DNA of 26,249 bases from a virus. Both the position numbers and the translations under genes were made by a program. This document shows, piece by piece, positions 3,800 to 26,182 of this stretch. The notes beneath the pieces were generated by a model. It saw only the letters and a program-made list of their open reading frames with translations. It searched no databases and had not been told where the DNA came from. The number at the start of each line of letters is the position of its first letter. Positions within the stretch are counted from its first letter, which is position 1. The DNA is taken from positions 1 to 26,249 of IMG/VR virus record IMGVR_UViG_3300023199_000048; one strand, 5' to 3'.

Positions 3800-4239
3800 C
3801 CCGCCCCTCCTGTCGAGCCCCTCTCGAAGGCCTTTCGGATCCGCTTCGCGAGCTTTGGATATTCGCGGTCGGCGGCGGGGCGCAGATAGGGGCGCGCGGG
3901 AATGGTAACGGATGAGACGAAGGCGACGCCGCCGTCGGGCTGCGGGATTGCAAGTGCCTCGGCGTTTCTGGGCACGATCGTGCCCCCCTCTTCGTGGATG
4001 CGGGCATAGGCCACGTCGCGCACGCCCCAGGTGCCGTGCACGCCATCGCCCTCGTCGCGGGCAAAGTCGACGATGTCTATGCCACCCTCCAGCACGCCGG
4101 TGCGGTTGTTCCAGTCGTGATTGGCCTTGGCGTCCTGCGCCGCCTTCGCCATGGTCTGGTTGACGCCGGTCTTCTGCGCCGCGCGCAGCTTGGCGGACAC
4201 CCGCTTGCCGAACCATTTGAGGGACTTCGACTTGGCCAC
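3796..4239 (-). CDS. HK97 gp10-like head-tail/tail component
   Basis: The protein is 147 aa from a GTG at 4239, two bases after the stop of the head-tail adaptor gene. It starts V/MAKSKSLKWFGKRVSAKL. The second half has the HK97-gp10-like signature: a YARIHEEGG turn, then ALAIP, and IPARPYLRPA followed by a C-terminal amphipathic helix. Members act at the head-tail interface or in tail completion. The order connector, adaptor, gp10-like, terminator, tube is the usual HK97/lambda arrangement. The GTG start is chosen because the longer frame upstream overlaps the adaptor gene and reads as a shadow. Confidence 0.72.
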   Translation of the reverse strand: MAKSKSLKWFGKRVSAKLRAAQKTGVNQTMAKAAQDAKANHDWNNRTGVLEGGIDIVDFARDEGDGVHGTWGVRDVAYARIHEEGGTIVPRNAEALAIPQPDGGVAFVSSVTIPARPYLRPAADREYPKLAKRIRKAFERGSTGGAG

Positions 4240-4241
4240 GG

Positions 4242-4583
4242 TCAGTCCAGGCGCCGCAGCGCCGCCTCCTGGTGGGTGTGCTTGCGCTGCACCGGCCCCT
4301 CGATGCGCAGCCGGCCGGAGATCAGCACGGTGCCCGCGCGGCCGGTGACTTGGGCGATCTCGTCGTCGCCGCGGATATCGGCGTCGAGCGCGAAGATCGC
4401 GCGCAGGTCCTCGACCATCGCCACCTTGCCGTCGACCACCTCGCGGCTGTTCTTCGACCACACGAAACAGCGCAGCGTGGCGAGCGGCTGGTAATCCGCC
4501 GGCACCGGCTGGCCCCAATCATCGGTGCCGGCGGCCTGGTCGCGCTCCACGTCGGCGCGCATGGTGAGGCGGCCGGCGATCAT
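4242..4583 (-). CDS. Head-tail adaptor / head closure protein
   Basis: The protein is 113 aa, with its ATG at 4583 overlapping the previous stop (ATGA). It opens MIAGRLTMRADVER and runs into a beta-rich body (LATLRCFVWSKNSREVV). It ends with the LRIEGP..R.H.H motif region often seen in phage head-tail joining proteins of the SPP1 gp16/HK97 gp8 type. These proteins close the portal-connector channel and provide the docking surface for the tail. Position between the connector and the gp10-like gene supports the call. Confidence 0.6.
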   Translation of the reverse strand: MIAGRLTMRADVERDQAAGTDDWGQPVPADYQPLATLRCFVWSKNSREVVDGKVAMVEDLRAIFALDADIRGDDEIAQVTGRAGTVLISGRLRIEGPVQRKHTHQEAALRRLD

Positions 4584-17906: not shown

Positions 17907-18249
17907 GGCCCGCCCCATCGTCGAGGATCGCATCGGCCAGCCCGTCACGGGCGATGGTGGTCAGCAGCCGCTCTGCCAGCATGGTGGTCGAGATGCCGCG
18001 CGCCACCGCCGCGGCGCCAAGGGCGGAAAAGACGCCCTCGGACACGCACAGGTTGCGCCTGGTTGTGTCCCGGGACGGCCCTCGCCGAAAGGTCGGCAGC
18101 CGGATGCCATGGCGGCGCGCCCAGTAAATATCGGCGTAGACGGTGTTGCGGCCGAGCCCCGTCTTCCGGATGATATCGGCCGGGCGAATACCCTTCATGG
18201 CCATCGCGATCACGTCGTCGCGGGACGTGCCTCTCGGAAACGCCATCAT
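17896..18249 (-). CDS. Helix-turn-helix protein, possible regulator
   Basis: The protein is 117 aa from the ATG at 18249; a second ATG follows at once at 18246. It overlaps the MuB-like stop and has GGAGG upstream. The N-terminal part has a clear helix-turn-helix (IRPADIIRKTGLGRNTVYAD, about residues 21-40). A second helical region (SEGVFSALGAAAVARGISTT, about 69-88) resembles a ribbon-helix-helix. It may regulate early genes or assist transposition, but no known family is evident. Confidence 0.65.
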   Translation of the reverse strand: MMAFPRGTSRDDVIAMAMKGIRPADIIRKTGLGRNTVYADIYWARRHGIRLPTFRRGPSRDTTRRNLCVSEGVFSALGAAAVARGISTTMLAERLLTTIARDGLADAILDDGAGHVS

Positions 18250-19190
18250 TCCGCCTCCACGTCGCGGTTGGCCCAGGCCGCGCGCAGATCGGCGAGCGTT
18301 ACGCCGCGCCCCTCGCCGTCGGCCGTCATGCGGGCAAGCTTGAGCGTCATCTCGACCTGGCCCAGGCCGCCTGGCTTGAGCCCCACGCCGGTGAGAAACT
18401 CGCGCTGCGTCTGGTCCTCGATGCCCCAGGCGTCGATGAAGGCGGTAAGATCATCACGGCTCGGCCGGTCGCGGCGCAGGCGGCGAAAGATGCGCCGGCG
18501 CAGTTGGCCGTATTTGTGGCCGTGGCCCCACTTGGCGAAGCGCCGGTAGGTCTCGTCGTTGCCCAGAAGCGCCACGCCGGCATCGTACATGTCGACGAAG
18601 TGGCGGAGCTGGTTGATTGCGTCGTCGCTCAGGTTCTGGGCCTCGTCGACGATCAGCAGCGTGCCGTCGCCGACCCGCCGCAGGCGCTCGCCGATCCTCT
18701 GGACCACCTCGCGGCTGTTGTTGGTGGCGACGCCCAGTGACGCGGCGATCTCGTGCAGCATGTTGTGCGGGCTGGAGCAATGCGGCGACATGGTCACCAG
18801 ATGCGCGTTGGCCCGCGTCCCGGTGTAGCGCCGCGCGGCCGTCGTCTTGCCGCAGCCGGCGCCGGCGGTGACCATCACCATGGCCGGCATGACCTGGGCG
18901 ATCGACAGCGTGGCGATGACCGCCTTGGCGAAGCCCAGTTCGATAAAGCCCGGCGCCTCGGGCATCGCCGCGGCGAGCTTTTCGAACTCCTCGATCGTGT
19001 CCAGCCACTGGCGGATGCGATCGTTGATCGCCTGAGTCTGGCAGCGATACCTGCCCTTGAGCCATTCGTGCAGGGTGCCCTGGCTGACGCCCGAGCGGCG
19101 GCTGATCTCCGCCACCGACCAACCGCGCGCCTCGGCCACCGCCTCGACACGTTGCACCAGGCCTTCTCGCTCCGTGCTTGTCTCTGTCAT
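18246..19190 (-). CDS. MuB-like transposition ATPase (target DNA activator)
   Basis: The protein is 314 aa from the ATG at 19190, with GAGGAG 8 nt upstream; the longer frame upstream overlaps the transposase stop. An N-terminal helix-turn-helix (about residues 24-45) precedes the AAA domain, with Walker A GAGCGKTT at 110-117 and Walker B LLIVDEAQ at 178-185. The length matches MuB (312 aa). MuB binds target DNA, stimulates the transposase and prevents insertion near existing copies. It lies 17 bp after the transposase gene, in the same order as Mu genes A and B. Confidence 0.9.
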   Translation of the reverse strand: MTETSTEREGLVQRVEAVAEARGWSVAEISRRSGVSQGTLHEWLKGRYRCQTQAINDRIRQWLDTIEEFEKLAAAMPEAPGFIELGFAKAVIATLSIAQVMPAMVMVTAGAGCGKTTAARRYTGTRANAHLVTMSPHCSSPHNMLHEIAASLGVATNNSREVVQRIGERLRRVGDGTLLIVDEAQNLSDDAINQLRHFVDMYDAGVALLGNDETYRRFAKWGHGHKYGQLRRRIFRRLRRDRPSRDDLTAFIDAWGIEDQTQREFLTGVGLKPGGLGQVEMTLKLARMTADGEGRGVTLADLRAAWANRDVEAE

Positions 19191-19207
19191 TTGGTACTCT
19201 CCTCGGT

Positions 19208-21103
19208 TCATGGAAATTTCAGCAGGCGGGCGCCGGCCTGGTCCGCGGCCCGGGCGAACGCCTCCTCGTGCTCCTCGGTCCATTCGGCCTGTTCCTTGAC
19301 CTTGCGGGCGGCGCTGCCGGCGGTCGCCAGCCGGGTCACGGCGGGCCGCCCCGGCGGCTCATCCGCCGGGGCGGGCCGCGTTGGCGCGTAAAGCCGCGCC
19401 AGTTCCTCGGGCGGCATCTGCACATGTTGCTCCTCCAGAGCGCGCACATGCTTGCGGAAGGTCCGCGCCTCGCGCGCCCGGCGCTGCGCGTCCTCCGCCG
19501 ACAGGAACGGCACGTCCTCGATCGCCTCCGCGGTACAAATGAGCTGGCCCGCCGTCGTGTAGATGCGCGCCGGGCGGGTCAGATCATCGGGATCGAAGCG
19601 GGCCACCACCTTGCGGCCAACATGATCCATCATCTCCGGCGCCCAGTAGCGCGCGCCCAGCAGGTGCACTTCGCCCGAAGGGCGGCGTGCGGTCACACCC
19701 TCGGCCGCCAGCAACCAGAAGTCGCGCTGTGCCGGCGTCGCGCGCCGCACCACGGTGTCCGGGGCCGCCATCGAGGCGCGGAATGTCTCATCCAGGCTGC
19801 GCCCCTTCGCCGCCGGACTCTTGCGGCCCGGCCGGGCGTTGTGATCGGCGATCCGGGCATCCACGAAGAGGCGGAACTCGTCCCACTCCAGCGCCCGGCT
19901 GCCGTAGTTGTCGGGCTTGGTGACGGGGGAGTTGCCGGTATAGGCGCCGGCGCAGAAAGGATGCTTCGCGATATCTTCGCAGAGGTCTCGAAAGGCCCTT
20001 TCGATGGGCTTGGACTGGCCGTGATAGGGCGTGGCCCAATGCACCGTGACGCCGAGCAGCGTCAGCAGGCCGTCCGGCTCATCGTCCTTGATCTTGAAGC
20101 AGTAGCGGGTCGGCTGCCCGCCGGTGATCCACTTGCTCGCGAAGCCCCGGCCGTTATCGAGGATTGCCTCATCCGGGATGCCGTAGCGCTCGACCACGTC
20201 GCCGAGCGCCAGGCGTACCGAGATGCGGCTTTCGCTCTCTGCCAGGCGCCAGGCGATCAGCTTGCCGCTGGCAATATCCTGCGCCGCCACAAGGCAGGGC
20301 CGGAACGGCGCGCCGTTGCCGTGCGGGCGGCGCACCATCACGTCGAAGGTGTGACCATCGAGCGTGATCGCCTGCATCGCGTGCAGATCGGCCTTGCTGC
20401 GCCGCTGCGCCGGCTGCAGCCTGGCGGCGGCCTCGCGGCCCTTGCGGCGGGCCACCACCACCGCCTTGGGCACCTCCGCCTCCAGGCGCCGCCGCAGCGC
20501 GGCCTCGGAGGGTATGGGCGCCCAGCCTTCCCGCTCGGCCGCCGCGCGCAGCCGCCGGTAACAGGCCGAAAAACCCGGAGCCTCCGGGCGCAGGTAATCG
20601 GATGTCAGGACGGCCCAGGCCTGCGGGTGGCACGCGGCATGACGGCTCCGGCCCTCCCGCCGCGGCGCGAGAGCCGCCAGCCAGTCGCTGGCCGGCAGGC
20701 CCGCCACACGGTCGATCCAGCGGCGCAGCGTGCTCGGCGAGATGCCATCCGCCGAGGCCACCATGGCGATCGCCTCGCCCTTGCGCCGGCCGGTCGCCAG
20801 TGCGGCCTCGAAGCGGCGAATGGCGTCCACCCGCTGCGCGGCCTCGGCGCGGACATGTTCGGGGAGCTGTTCGAACCGGCTCCAGTCGGCGGCGGCGGTT
20901 TCAGCCCTGCCCGAGGCCAGGGCCGCCTGGACCTGTTCGGGAAACAGGCTGATGTGAAATTCCCAGCCGCGCCCGACACGCCGCGCGCGGCCGCTGCCGC
21001 GCCAGCCCTCCCGATCGGCAATCTTGGACCATCCGAATCTTGTTTCCGGAAACCCGGCGACGCGCACCGCCGCCGCGTCGGACAGGCTGAACCACACCCG
21101 CAT
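19208..21103 (-). CDS. Mu-like DDE transposase (MuA)
   Basis: The protein is 631 aa from the ATG at 21103. Residues 1 to about 220 form the DNA-binding domain, with a winged part (VWFSLSDAAAVRVAG) and an HTH part (SPSTLRRWIDRVAGLPASDW). The RNase H-fold core has its catalytic triad at Asp249 (ITLDGH), Asp316 (AILDNG) and Glu368 (PIERAF). The spacing is close to that of MuA (269/336/392). The C-terminal domain would contact the ATPase. The enzyme catalyses replicative transposition. A second copy of its N-terminal domain is encoded immediately upstream. Confidence 0.94.
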   Translation of the reverse strand: MRVWFSLSDAAAVRVAGFPETRFGWSKIADREGWRGSGRARRVGRGWEFHISLFPEQVQAALASGRAETAAADWSRFEQLPEHVRAEAAQRVDAIRRFEAALATGRRKGEAIAMVASADGISPSTLRRWIDRVAGLPASDWLAALAPRREGRSRHAACHPQAWAVLTSDYLRPEAPGFSACYRRLRAAAEREGWAPIPSEAALRRRLEAEVPKAVVVARRKGREAAARLQPAQRRSKADLHAMQAITLDGHTFDVMVRRPHGNGAPFRPCLVAAQDIASGKLIAWRLAESESRISVRLALGDVVERYGIPDEAILDNGRGFASKWITGGQPTRYCFKIKDDEPDGLLTLLGVTVHWATPYHGQSKPIERAFRDLCEDIAKHPFCAGAYTGNSPVTKPDNYGSRALEWDEFRLFVDARIADHNARPGRKSPAAKGRSLDETFRASMAAPDTVVRRATPAQRDFWLLAAEGVTARRPSGEVHLLGARYWAPEMMDHVGRKVVARFDPDDLTRPARIYTTAGQLICTAEAIEDVPFLSAEDAQRRAREARTFRKHVRALEEQHVQMPPEELARLYAPTRPAPADEPPGRPAVTRLATAGSAARKVKEQAEWTEEHEEAFARAADQAGARLLKFP

Positions 21104-21789
21104 CAGCGATCCCCTTTCTTCTGTTGGCGGCGATAGGCGTGGGGATATTCAACCCTGAACCGGCGCCGCAGCGCGGCGTCGGAGGGTATGGGCGCCCAGC
21201 CTTTCCGCTCGGCCACCGTGCGCATCCGGCGCAGGCAGGCCGCAAACCCGCCCTTGCCCGGCTTCGACATCTCCCGTGCGAGCATCGCCCAGGCCTGCGG
21301 GTGGCATTCTGCGTGGCGGGGGCCGCTGCCGCCACGCTTGTGCGGGGCCAGCCAGACAAGGTAATCGCTGGGCGGCACACCCGCCACCCGGTCCACCCAG
21401 CGGCGCAGGGTGCGGTGGTTGAGGTCGGGATCGTCCATCGCGACCCGGGAAATCGAAGCCATCTTGCCATGGCCGGCCCGCATCAGGGCATCGACGGCGC
21501 GCACGGCCTTCGATCTGATTTCGGCCTTCCTGCGCTCATCGTCGGTCAGGCTTTCAAGGTGAGAAAATTTGGCCTCGGCCTCCATTTCCGCCTCTCTCGC
21601 GATCAGCAGGGACTGAGCGATCGGCGGGAACAGGCTGATATGGTATTCCCAGCATCGCCAGCCCCACCGGGCCTTGTCGTTCTCGCACCAGCCCTCCCTC
21701 TTGGCGAGGGCTTCCCAGCCGCGCAGGGTGGTTGGGCAGCCGGCCGCACGGATGGCCGCCGCTTCGTCGAGGGAATACCACTTGCGCAT
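21103..21789 (-). CDS. Stand-alone MuA DNA-binding domain (transposase domain I paralogue)
   Basis: The protein is 228 aa from the ATG at 21789, which overlaps the ParB-like stop; it ends on the first base of the transposase ATG. It matches the transposase N-terminus along its whole length: both open MR.W.SL..AAA.R.AG, both have WE.HISLFP at about 47-55, RTLRRWVDRVAG or its equivalent at about 126, and GWAPIPS.AALRRR near 198. It stops at residue 228, just where the transposase enters its catalytic core. It has no DDE residues. It could bind phage ends or the internal enhancer and compete with or assist the transposase. Some segments are nearly identical in DNA (around 20488-20542 and 21162-21215), suggesting local gene conversion. 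Confidence 0.88.
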   Translation of the reverse strand: MRKWYSLDEAAAIRAAGCPTTLRGWEALAKREGWCENDKARWGWRCWEYHISLFPPIAQSLLIAREAEMEAEAKFSHLESLTDDERRKAEIRSKAVRAVDALMRAGHGKMASISRVAMDDPDLNHRTLRRWVDRVAGVPPSDYLVWLAPHKRGGSGPRHAECHPQAWAMLAREMSKPGKGGFAACLRRMRTVAERKGWAPIPSDAALRRRFRVEYPHAYRRQQKKGDR

Positions 21790-22595
21790 CAGCCGTCGCC
21801 CCGCTCGATTTCGCGAAGCGCCGCACGGTGCTCGTCAGGATACTTGCGGATCAGCTCGATCAACGAACCTTTACGAGTTCGCTTGTCGAGCCGCGCGAAC
21901 ACCGCGATAAATCGGTTCTGGTCTCTGTCGACATCCGGCTTCTTGCCGCCTTTTGCCAGCGCCTTCTCGATGGCCTCGTCGAGCGTCGCCTCGCCGGAGG
22001 TCACGCGATCGACAATTGCCAACTGGTCGGCGGGCTGCATCTTGGCCAGCGTTGTCAGGATGCCGAGCCTGTCGGCCCAGACAGTGCCATAGAGCATGGC
22101 CTTAAGGCCGGGATCGAGAGTGCGGAGCGTCTGCCATCTCGCCAGCGTGACTCTGCTGACACCGATCCTGTCAGCCACATGGTCGAGTTCATCAGACCAA
22201 AGTGTCGTCGTGATACTTTGCTTGCCGCCGCGCGTGATCGGGCCGTGTTTTGCCTCGAAATCCTCGCGCAGGGCGATCACCGCGTCGGCGCGTTCCAGCA
22301 GCGACAGTTCGTTGCGGATCAGGTTCTCGTGGATCTCGTTGACCCGGGAGTCCGTGGCCGACATCACCATGCAAGGCGCGGTCTGCCAGCCCAGGCGGCG
22401 CATCGCGGTCAGCCGATGCAGGCCATGGATCAGGGTCCATCTGTCGGTGCGCGGCGTTTGGTAGACAGCGATCGGGGACAGCAAACCGCGTTCGCCGATG
22501 CTTTCGGCCAGCAGGGCGACATAGCCGTCGGTAAGCGGCCGGAGCCTTTCGCCCTCGTTTATCTTGTCGATCGGGATTTCCTTGAACGCGCTCAT
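21789..22595 (-). CDS. ParB-like protein
   Basis: The protein is 268 aa from the ATG at 22595, overlapping the preceding stop by ATGA; longer upstream frames are shadows. The ParB/Srx-type N-terminal domain is clear: IPIDKINEGERLRPL, GLLSPIAVYQ, and the GLHRLTAMRRLG motif (58-69). Then comes ENLIRNELSLLERA (90-103) and an HTH (VADRIGVSRVTLARW). Such proteins in phages act as DNA-binding regulators or nucleases. Whether it is a CTPase-type ParB or a nuclease cannot be told from the sequence alone. It sits next to a DNA methyltransferase, so a role in DNA modification or partition-like control is possible. Confidence 0.85.
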   Translation of the reverse strand: MSAFKEIPIDKINEGERLRPLTDGYVALLAESIGERGLLSPIAVYQTPRTDRWTLIHGLHRLTAMRRLGWQTAPCMVMSATDSRVNEIHENLIRNELSLLERADAVIALREDFEAKHGPITRGGKQSITTTLWSDELDHVADRIGVSRVTLARWQTLRTLDPGLKAMLYGTVWADRLGILTTLAKMQPADQLAIVDRVTSGEATLDEAIEKALAKGGKKPDVDRDQNRFIAVFARLDKRTRKGSLIELIRKYPDEHRAALREIERGDG

Positions 22596-24573: not shown

Positions 24574-24601
24574 ATTATACCGATCCATTTGGATCGGTCA
24601 A
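24574..24601 (-). promoter_or_regulatory. Early promoter (Pe-like)
   Basis: On the minus strand: TTGACC (-35, 24601-24596), 16-bp spacer, TATAAT (-10, 24579-24574, perfect consensus). The predicted start is near 24567, 30 bases before the first early ATG (24537). The spacer is the operator dyad. This is the best sigma-70-type promoter in the window and would drive the whole early operon. Confidence 0.82.
24580..24597. promoter_or_regulatory. Operator O1 (perfect dyad in the early promoter)
   Basis: CCGATCC-ATTT-GGATCGG: perfect 7-bp arms. It occupies the whole spacer between -35 and -10 of the early promoter, so a bound repressor would block RNA polymerase. It is the probable primary site of the S24 repressor encoded next door. 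Confidence 0.78.
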
Positions 24602-24610
24602 TAACGAAAG

Positions 24611-24626
24611 CGATCCTAATGGATAG
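24611..24626. promoter_or_regulatory. Operator O2 over the repressor start codon
   Basis: CGATCC-TAAT-GGATAG repeats the O1 pattern with the last arm imperfect. It is centred about 30 bp from O1, near three helical turns, and includes the repressor ATG (24619-24621). It suggests that the repressor limits its own synthesis and binds both sites cooperatively. Confidence 0.62.
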
Positions 24627-25317
24627 TTTTGGTGACCGGCTGAGGTGTGAAAGGAAGCGCCTGAAGCTGACCCAAAAGGAACTGGCTCTCAAAGCCGGAT
24701 CGAGCGAGCCTTCTCAGAGGCGCTATGAAAGCAGTAGCCGTCAGCCATCAGCTGATTATCTGGAAAAAATCGCGTCGATGGGAATCGACATTGTCTATAT
24801 CCTCACTGGCCAGCGGGCGATTGATGCCATCGCGGCCAAAGAGGAGTGGCGCGCTACGCCGACGACCGAAATCGATCACGATCAGCTCGCTCTCGTCCCC
24901 CGCTACGACGCCCAAGGCGCCGCCGGCGACGGCGTGATCAACCTGGACGAAGCACCAGCCGATCACCTTGCCTTTCCGCGCGATTGGCTCGTGGCCAATG
25001 GCCTGCGGGCCGCCACCGCCTTCCTGATGACCGTGCGCGGCGACAGCATGGCGCCCACGCTTCAGGACGGCGACCTGATCATGGTCGACAGGGCCCGCAC
25101 CGGGCCCCGCTCAGGCCGAATCTACGTCTATAATGACCCGGCGGGCGACGGCACCCGCATCAAGCGGATCGACGCCGACGGCGGCGGCCTGGTCATCCGC
25201 TCCGACAACCCGGCGGCGGCCCCTGCGCTTGAGATGATCACCGATCGCGACCGCGCCGACGATCTGTTGGCGCGTATCATCGGCGAGGTGGTCTGGTGCG
25301 GCCATAAATTGAGCTGA
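24619..25317 (+). CDS. Phage repressor, XRE HTH + S24 (LexA/CI-type) peptidase domain
   Basis: The protein is 232 aa. The ATG at 24619 is chosen over a TTG at 24589, because the TTG lies inside operator O1. The HTH is at residues 5-50 (DRLRCERKRLKLTQKELALK, then SQRRYE). The C-terminal domain carries the Ser-Lys dyad, Ser143 in VRGDSMAPTL and Lys182 in DGTRIKRI. A candidate self-cleavage Ala-Gly is at 102-103 in QGAAGDG. Such repressors are cut when RecA is activated, so induction by DNA damage is expected. Mu's own repressor is a different family, so the control module has been exchanged. Two operators lie at the 5' end. Confidence 0.93.
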   Translation: MDSFGDRLRCERKRLKLTQKELALKAGSSEPSQRRYESSSRQPSADYLEKIASMGIDIVYILTGQRAIDAIAAKEEWRATPTTEIDHDQLALVPRYDAQGAAGDGVINLDEAPADHLAFPRDWLVANGLRAATAFLMTVRGDSMAPTLQDGDLIMVDRARTGPRSGRIYVYNDPAGDGTRIKRIDADGGGLVIRSDNPAAAPALEMITDRDRADDLLARIIGEVVWCGHKLS

Positions 25318-25896: not shown

Positions 25897-25965
25897 TTGC
25901 CGTTTGCCCTCGATGCCTGATACCAGGCCCCTCTCGACACGACCTCAACGCCGCTTTTTCCCTTG

Positions 25966-26008
25966 TTTGAGAGGGGTTTGCGCTAAACGCGGCAGATTTT
26001 TTGAGAGG
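25966..26008 (+). repeat. TTTGAGAGG repeats near the phage end
   Basis: TTTGAGAGG at 25966-25974 and TTTTGAGAGG at 25999-26008, same orientation, about 34 bp apart. The identical word occurs twice in the central gap at 8287-8316. They could be transposase-binding sites of the end, but this rests only on position and recurrence. Confidence 0.5.
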
Positions 26009-26182
26009 TTGCCTGAAAAGTTACCAAACCAGGTGAAAAAAAATTGTCCAAAAGCGCCGCAAAACGCTATAAAATACCGATATTACAATAGGTTGCGTCA
26101 TGTGCAGAACAGCTGCAAAATTTGTCAAACTTGGCGACGGCTAACACCCGGTCTTCTTCTGGCCGGAAATATCCCAGGGGGT

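Follow-up and report, generated by a model that had tools for sequence, protein, structure and literature searches.

A separate gene for a MuA-type DNA-binding domain lies ahead of the transposase gene in a Mu-like phage

The transposition enhancer of phage Mu is bound by both the transposase and the repressor, which recognize it through related Iα domains. Within the transposase, MuA, subdomain Iα binds the enhancer and subdomains Iβ and Iγ bind the phage ends; within the transpososome, Iγ is additionally engaged in extensive contacts with protein (PMC3362531). Elsewhere among transposable elements, the 66 kDa and 207-aa KP proteins of the P element keep the DNA-binding domain of the transposase, lack catalysis and repress transposition (PMC7776569). 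Mu itself, as an earlier note on the present DNA had stated, has no separate gene for the MuA N-terminal domain. Here, we analyse a phage locus with an unusual arrangement, in which the complete MuA-type DNA-binding domain is encoded as a separate gene ahead of the transposase gene, tnpA. The window, that is, the whole stretch of DNA analysed, is a single virus record of 26,249 bases, one contig from IMG/VR.

The product of the extra gene, P0002, shares with MuA domain I (PF02316, PF09039; 1tns, 2ezk, 2ezh, 4fcy) its three subdomains, their order and their predicted folds. In contrast to domain I, however, it has its own gene, lacks the catalytic core and the C-terminal region, and is evolving faster. 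Its likeness to the N-terminal domain of the Mu c repressor (1qpm, 1g4d) consists in an Iα-type winged helix-turn-helix carried by a separate small DNA-binding protein. The Mu repressor, a short protein with a regulatory tail and no Iβ–Iγ, is encoded divergently from the early operon. P0002 possesses both Iβ and Iγ, and its gene is part of the early operon itself, read from the same strand. The divergent repressor of this phage is of the LexA/CI type, unlike Mu c, and its Peptidase_S24 and HTH_3 domains bear out the earlier description of it as LexA-like. Like the P element repressors, P0002 is a catalysis-less protein that is encoded by the element and derives from the element’s own transposase (tree support 100/98; no DDE domain). 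Those repressors belong to the unrelated THAP-domain family and are products of alternative splicing or of elements with internal deletions, whereas P0002 is encoded by a tandem gene; moreover, repression has been demonstrated experimentally for the P element proteins, whereas for P0002 the parallel extends to conserved recognition elements.

Table 1 Features of the locus and its surroundings (window coordinates).
Feature	Position	Strand	Basis or remarks
Free MuA-type DNA-binding-domain gene (P0002, 228 aa)	21103..21789	-	ORF, translation, Pfam, AF2
Iα-like winged helix-turn-helix, residues 1–66	21592..21789	-	Foldseek 1tns, TM (target) 0.64
Iβ-like end-binding subdomain, residues 75–157	21319..21567	-	2ezk, TM (target) 0.72
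Iγ-like end-binding subdomain and tail, residues 158–228	21106..21318	-	2ezh, TM (target) 0.73
TGATG stop/start overlap, parB-like gene/P0002	21787..21791	-	Sequence, ORF ends; A21789 shared
TGATG stop/start overlap, P0002/tnpA	21101..21105	-	Sequence; A21103 shared; SD-like AAAGGGG ahead
25-nt stretch identical in both copies	21179..21203, partner 20505-20529	-	Part of GWAPIPS, shared ATA codon
Complete MuA-type transposase gene tnpA (P0003, 631 aa), parent paralogue	19208..21103	-	Pfam, PHROG 310
ParB-like gene, upstream in early operon	21789..22595	-	Pfam ParB_N
MuB-type ATPase gene, downstream of tnpA	18246..19211	-	Pfam Phage-MuB_C, AAA_22; start inferred from reading frame
LexA/CI-type repressor gene, divergent from early operon	24589..25317	+	Pfam Peptidase_S24, HTH_3
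Candidate left-end transposase sites, three degenerate T-TTTTGAGAGG-TTGC copies	25963..26100	+	Repeat families D1, D3 (tentative)

The early operon runs on the minus strand in the order parB-like gene, P0002, tnpA (encoding the transposase P0003) and MuB-type ATPase gene. The 228 codons of P0002 contain no internal stop, and its residues 1–226 align with transposase residues 1–222 at 111 of 226 identical positions (49%, E = 6e-62, BLASTP), in agreement with the earlier account of a product that matches the transposase from residue 1 to about 222. Both HTH_Tnp_Mu_1 and HTH_Tnp_Mu_2 are matched above the curated Pfam cut-offs, whereas DDE_2 and Mu-transpos_C, which P0003 carries in addition to these two, have no Pfam match in P0002. 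Together, the Pfam, PHROG and structure matches identify MuA-type Iα, Iβ and Iγ without a catalytic core. The boundary is less sharp than first described, when the protein was said to end precisely at the start of the core: the last P0003 residue aligned is 222 and the DDE_2 match in P0003 begins at 239, leaving P0002 about 16 residues short of it. The match to the Iγ model PF09039, which has 109 positions, ends at 86 and so lacks the final 23 (roughly a fifth), and the last 14 or so residues of P0002 align poorly with P0003 (29% identity). The protein carries a net positive charge, with 44 lysines and arginines to 28 acidic residues. Both junctions of the gene are one-base TGATG overlaps; the single base shared with tnpA was correctly described, whereas the ATGA overlap proposed for the upstream junction was not found. 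P0002 is thus a separate, intact and translationally coupled gene, as had been claimed, with all three MuA N-terminal subdomains.

An AlphaFold2 model of P0002 has a mean pLDDT of 93, a confidence that partly reflects the homologous alignment, and Foldseek matches it to the solved Iα, Iβ and Iγ subdomains of MuA, each separately. The Iα-like part also matches the DNA-binding domain of the Mu repressor (1qpm, TM (target) 0.56); it retains nearly all the conserved residues present in the parent transposase, and its wing signature reads GWRCWEY instead of VGRGWEF. The best-kept stretches of the protein are the Iβ helix TLRRWVDR and the Iγ turn GWAPIPS. The former lies in a recognition-helix stretch, RTLRRWVDR, common to P0002 and its own transposase, and helix H125-134 is 70% identical to that transposase compared with 39% to related ones. 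The Iβ part additionally contains in-frame insertions, one and two codons long, that are private to this copy. In Iγ, the turn is 100% identical in the two proteins and GWAPIPS-AALRRR is retained, SDYLRP is replaced by REMSKP, and the near-invariant residues D173, L175, R176 and P180 are lost, as is W75 outside this subdomain. This combination of kept end-binding stretches, an altered wing and lost Iγ invariants suits a protein still able to sit on the end sites but not to join the assembled complex, and the retained sequence tips the balance slightly towards end binding by P0002 rather than enhancer binding.

To place the gene among its relatives, we gathered MuA-type loci from IMG/VR, GTDB genomes and phage records. 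Single-sequence scans returned no close relative of P0002 in viral and genome contigs, or of P0003 in viral contigs, and relatives were reached by alignment scans and a MuB scan. A maximum-likelihood tree of 84 N-domain rows places P0002 as sister to the N-domain of P0003 with support of 100/98, and the pair nests in a clade with Mwe-Yong1, L012–L017, L076 and L127. When thirds of the domain were analysed alone, the first two gave the same pair at 96/95 and 98/97 and the last again grouped P0002 with P0003, without strong support; because the pair is recovered from separate thirds, the grouping does not stem from a single converted patch. L479–L481, the phages nearest by MuB (MuB 63% and transposase 51–53% identical), have one continuous transposase each and no extra gene, and their addition leaves the pair unchanged. 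Every related phage found likewise has a single continuous transposase and no P0002-like gene. The sister grouping and the relatives without the gene therefore point to a partial duplication private to the lineage of this phage: among everything searched, P0002 is a lineage-specific duplicate of the 5′ third of tnpA. The aligned codons of the two copies are 60% identical at the DNA level, so the duplication is not recent.

The end of the gene carries a possible trace of how it arose. The last 45 nt of P0002 match the end of the parB-like gene at 22 of 45 positions in a stop-anchored, ungapped comparison (controls, 12.6 ± 3.1), a value equalled or exceeded by 10 of 3,735 control gene ends; when the last 9 nt, which comprise the stop and the ribosome-site region, are left out, 2.3% of controls reach the similarity. 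Gapped alignment of the two ends gave no informative signal. These matches suggest a tandem duplication that spanned both the end of parB and the 5′ part of tnpA, in which case the duplicated parB end would have supplied the stop of P0002 and tnpA would have kept its native start context. The near-identical DNA patches that had been attributed to gene conversion are present, as identical runs of 25 nt, longer than expected in a longest-run permutation (p = 0.007), and 20 nt. They encode GWAPIPS and CHPQAW, motifs that are conserved across the whole family, the 25-nt run falling in the most conserved of all its motifs, and for this reason conversion is possible but not demonstrated.

Our survey took in 391 reading frames for full-length MuA-type transposases, 329 of them distinct in sequence, and beside none of them did we find a second intact Iα–Iβ–Iγ gene without a core. 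The Iγ family occurs at 17 places in 385 alphaproteobacterial genomes, each of them in a frame of 571–950 aa; across 398 genomes of the phylum, it is carried by two short frames (201 and 134 aa). The full-domain pair, which the earlier note had proposed to seek in other phage genomes, was therefore not met again, whereas free genes with a single subdomain do occur upstream of tnpA, rarely. A literature search, with most subscription journals outside its coverage, turned up no description of the MuA N-domain as a gene of its own.

Three loci offer such partial parallels: like P0002, their genes are separate and lie upstream of tnpA on the same strand; in contrast to P0002, each holds one subdomain, their origins are independent and none has the complete set. 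In L037 (404-772, plus strand), a 122-aa free Iα gene lies between parB and tnpA and overlaps the tnpA start. The first 40 or so nucleotides of these two genes are nearly identical and form a direct repeat where each gene starts, and the best match of the free domain is not the transposase of its own phage. In L058 (4602-5228, plus strand), an upstream gene contains an Iγ copy that is 71% identical to Iγ of its own transposase and is flanked by two similar stretches, VREFVAKWDKP and VREFITEWDKP. In L456 (G998:C2:33500-40500; 3972-4568, minus strand), a 198-aa protein combining a CI-like helix-turn-helix with MuA Iγ is encoded upstream of a 764-aa MuA-type transposase frame, which is the best match of its Iγ (57%). 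The free Iγ of L058 and L456 thus resembles P0002 in matching its own phage’s transposase best. A fourth locus, L073 (1739-4604, plus strand), is a mosaic, with a transposase of a different type that has an Iα-like start and, in the frame just upstream, an Iγ-like remnant.

Several other candidates were set aside. In StopSmel, Aussie and POA1180, the hypothetical proteins whose genes separate parB from tnpA belong to PHROG 2345, ‘transcriptional regulators’, and are not free MuA domains, and the split transposase annotated in POA1180 is covered by one stop-free frame. An ORF with only the N-domain in L070/L133 (Sinorhizobium saheli) runs into an unrelated frame with no tnpA core nearby, and we read it as a prophage deletion. 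The transposases of L042, L117, L123, L124, L126, L129 and L135 are broken by stops or frameshifts.

The most likely role of P0002, to which we give a little under an even chance, is that of a non-catalytic competitor at the sites of the transposase: a tnpA-derived protein made in the early operon that occupies the end sites without catalysis and damps transpososome assembly. Duplication of the tnpA 5′ third in the lineage of this phage gave the operon the order parB–free N-domain–tnpA–muB. The product of the new gene would be folded and bind DNA but have neither catalytic parts nor parts that contact MuB, and would be translated beside the transposase and roughly in proportion to it. Through Iβ–Iγ this protein would occupy the transposase sites at the phage ends, unable to catalyse, and once bound would damp or time transpososome assembly in the manner of the DNA-binding-domain-only repressors of other transposons. 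In favour of this reading we count the paralogy, the nearest relatives without the gene, the intact frame, the well-kept end-binding elements, the positive net charge and the two other free Iγ genes that best match their own transposases. We infer that P0002 is expressed, binds these sites and acts as a competitor. Candidate sites at the left end consist of degenerate copies at 25963, 25997 and 26081 (spacing of about 34 and 84 bases), and a scan of the window for near-consensus T-TTTTGAGAGG-TTGC found the copies at 25997 and 26081 and no others; sequence beyond about 26100 may be host DNA. At the start of the repressor gene, positions 24583-24624 hold an inverted repeat (ATCCATTTGGATCG / CGATCCTAATGGAT, 14 nt, 93%), which is likely an operator.

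The main rival to the competitor reading, and one that we consider a serious though lesser possibility, is neutral decay: P0002 would be a partial tandem duplicate that is open by chance and drifting to loss, with no function beyond perhaps keeping tnpA translationally coupled to parB. Its absence from all relatives fits this explanation, as do the loss of invariant residues and a branch about three times longer than that of its paralogue (1.18 compared with 0.39 in the 84-row tree). In branch codon models, ω = 1 is not rejected (p = 0.15), although these models are saturated and do not discriminate. Changes are spread flat over conserved and variable columns, with P0002 unchanged in 76% of low-entropy, 73% of middle-entropy and 56% of high-entropy columns (parsimony, p = 0.12, confident ancestral states), whereas comparably diverged transposases give 94–97% versus 57–60% unchanged in the same test. 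Highly conserved columns are kept at 67%, compared with 94–100% in most transposases. We count the codon result, the flat pattern, the 67% retention and the lack of a second phage with the full gene against the competitor. Neutral decay, however, has to account for 228 codons without a stop or frameshift at the present divergence, for which neutral simulations at matching amino-acid divergence give a probability of about 0.02–0.2. All indels relative to relatives are whole codons and in frame, which together with the open frame is improbable over a long neutral history, and GC3 is normal (0.82, compared with 0.86–0.89 in neighbouring genes). The open frame and in-frame indels argue for selection and maintenance of the gene; overall, we regard P0002 as being under relaxed constraint, its maintenance probable but unproven. 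The gene had been called maintained rather than decaying: the lack of visible decay stands, and purifying selection is not established at the p values above. The earlier note had also considered that the copy might derive, by recent duplication and decay, from a single continuous transposase in related phages; such transposases are what the relatives carry, whereas neither the recent duplication nor the decay is seen.

A different role, which we consider improbable, is that free Iα binds the internal enhancer or an early operator, taking over the shared-site function of the Mu c repressor. The well-conserved Iα and its modelled similarity to the Mu repressor domain are consistent with this role, as are the free Iα gene ahead of tnpA in L037 and the divergent repressors with an Iα-like domain that, as Mu c would lead one to expect, are common throughout the Mu group. 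The wing signature, however, is lost (GRG to WRC), the gene is co-directional with the early operon rather than encoding a divergent repressor, and enhancer or operator binding would not need the retained Iβ and Iγ.

Still less probable is an architectural role, in which P0002 would occupy accessory end sites as a partner without catalysis and aid the assembly of a mixed transpososome. Its retained recognition elements and its production together with the transposase would suit such a partner, but relatives manage without the gene, and loss of the invariant Iγ residues L175, R176 and P180 argues against a structural role, given the extensive protein contacts of Iγ in the Mu transpososome (PMC3362531). 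We give practically no credence to an assembly artefact or misjoined duplicate: the record is a single contig, but copies with only 60% DNA identity can be produced neither by read mis-assembly nor by strain collapse.

If the partial parallels are considered together with P0002, MuA-type phages might repeatedly copy pieces of the transposase DNA-binding region into small early genes immediately upstream of tnpA, the copies regulating by competition for the phage’s own sites, a generalization that we think on balance unlikely. Mu-type repressors, with their sites in common with the transposase, could also have arisen by way of such self-derived copies. A phage that combines a LexA-type repressor with a free copy of the whole DNA-binding region of its transposase makes it possible to test directly whether such copies are brakes or assembly factors. 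If P0002 has no effect, it is a dated case of a phage gene that was partly duplicated, the copy then slowly decaying. If it inhibits, Mu-like phages have a self-encoded, operon-coupled control of transposition dose, comparable to that of eukaryotic P elements.
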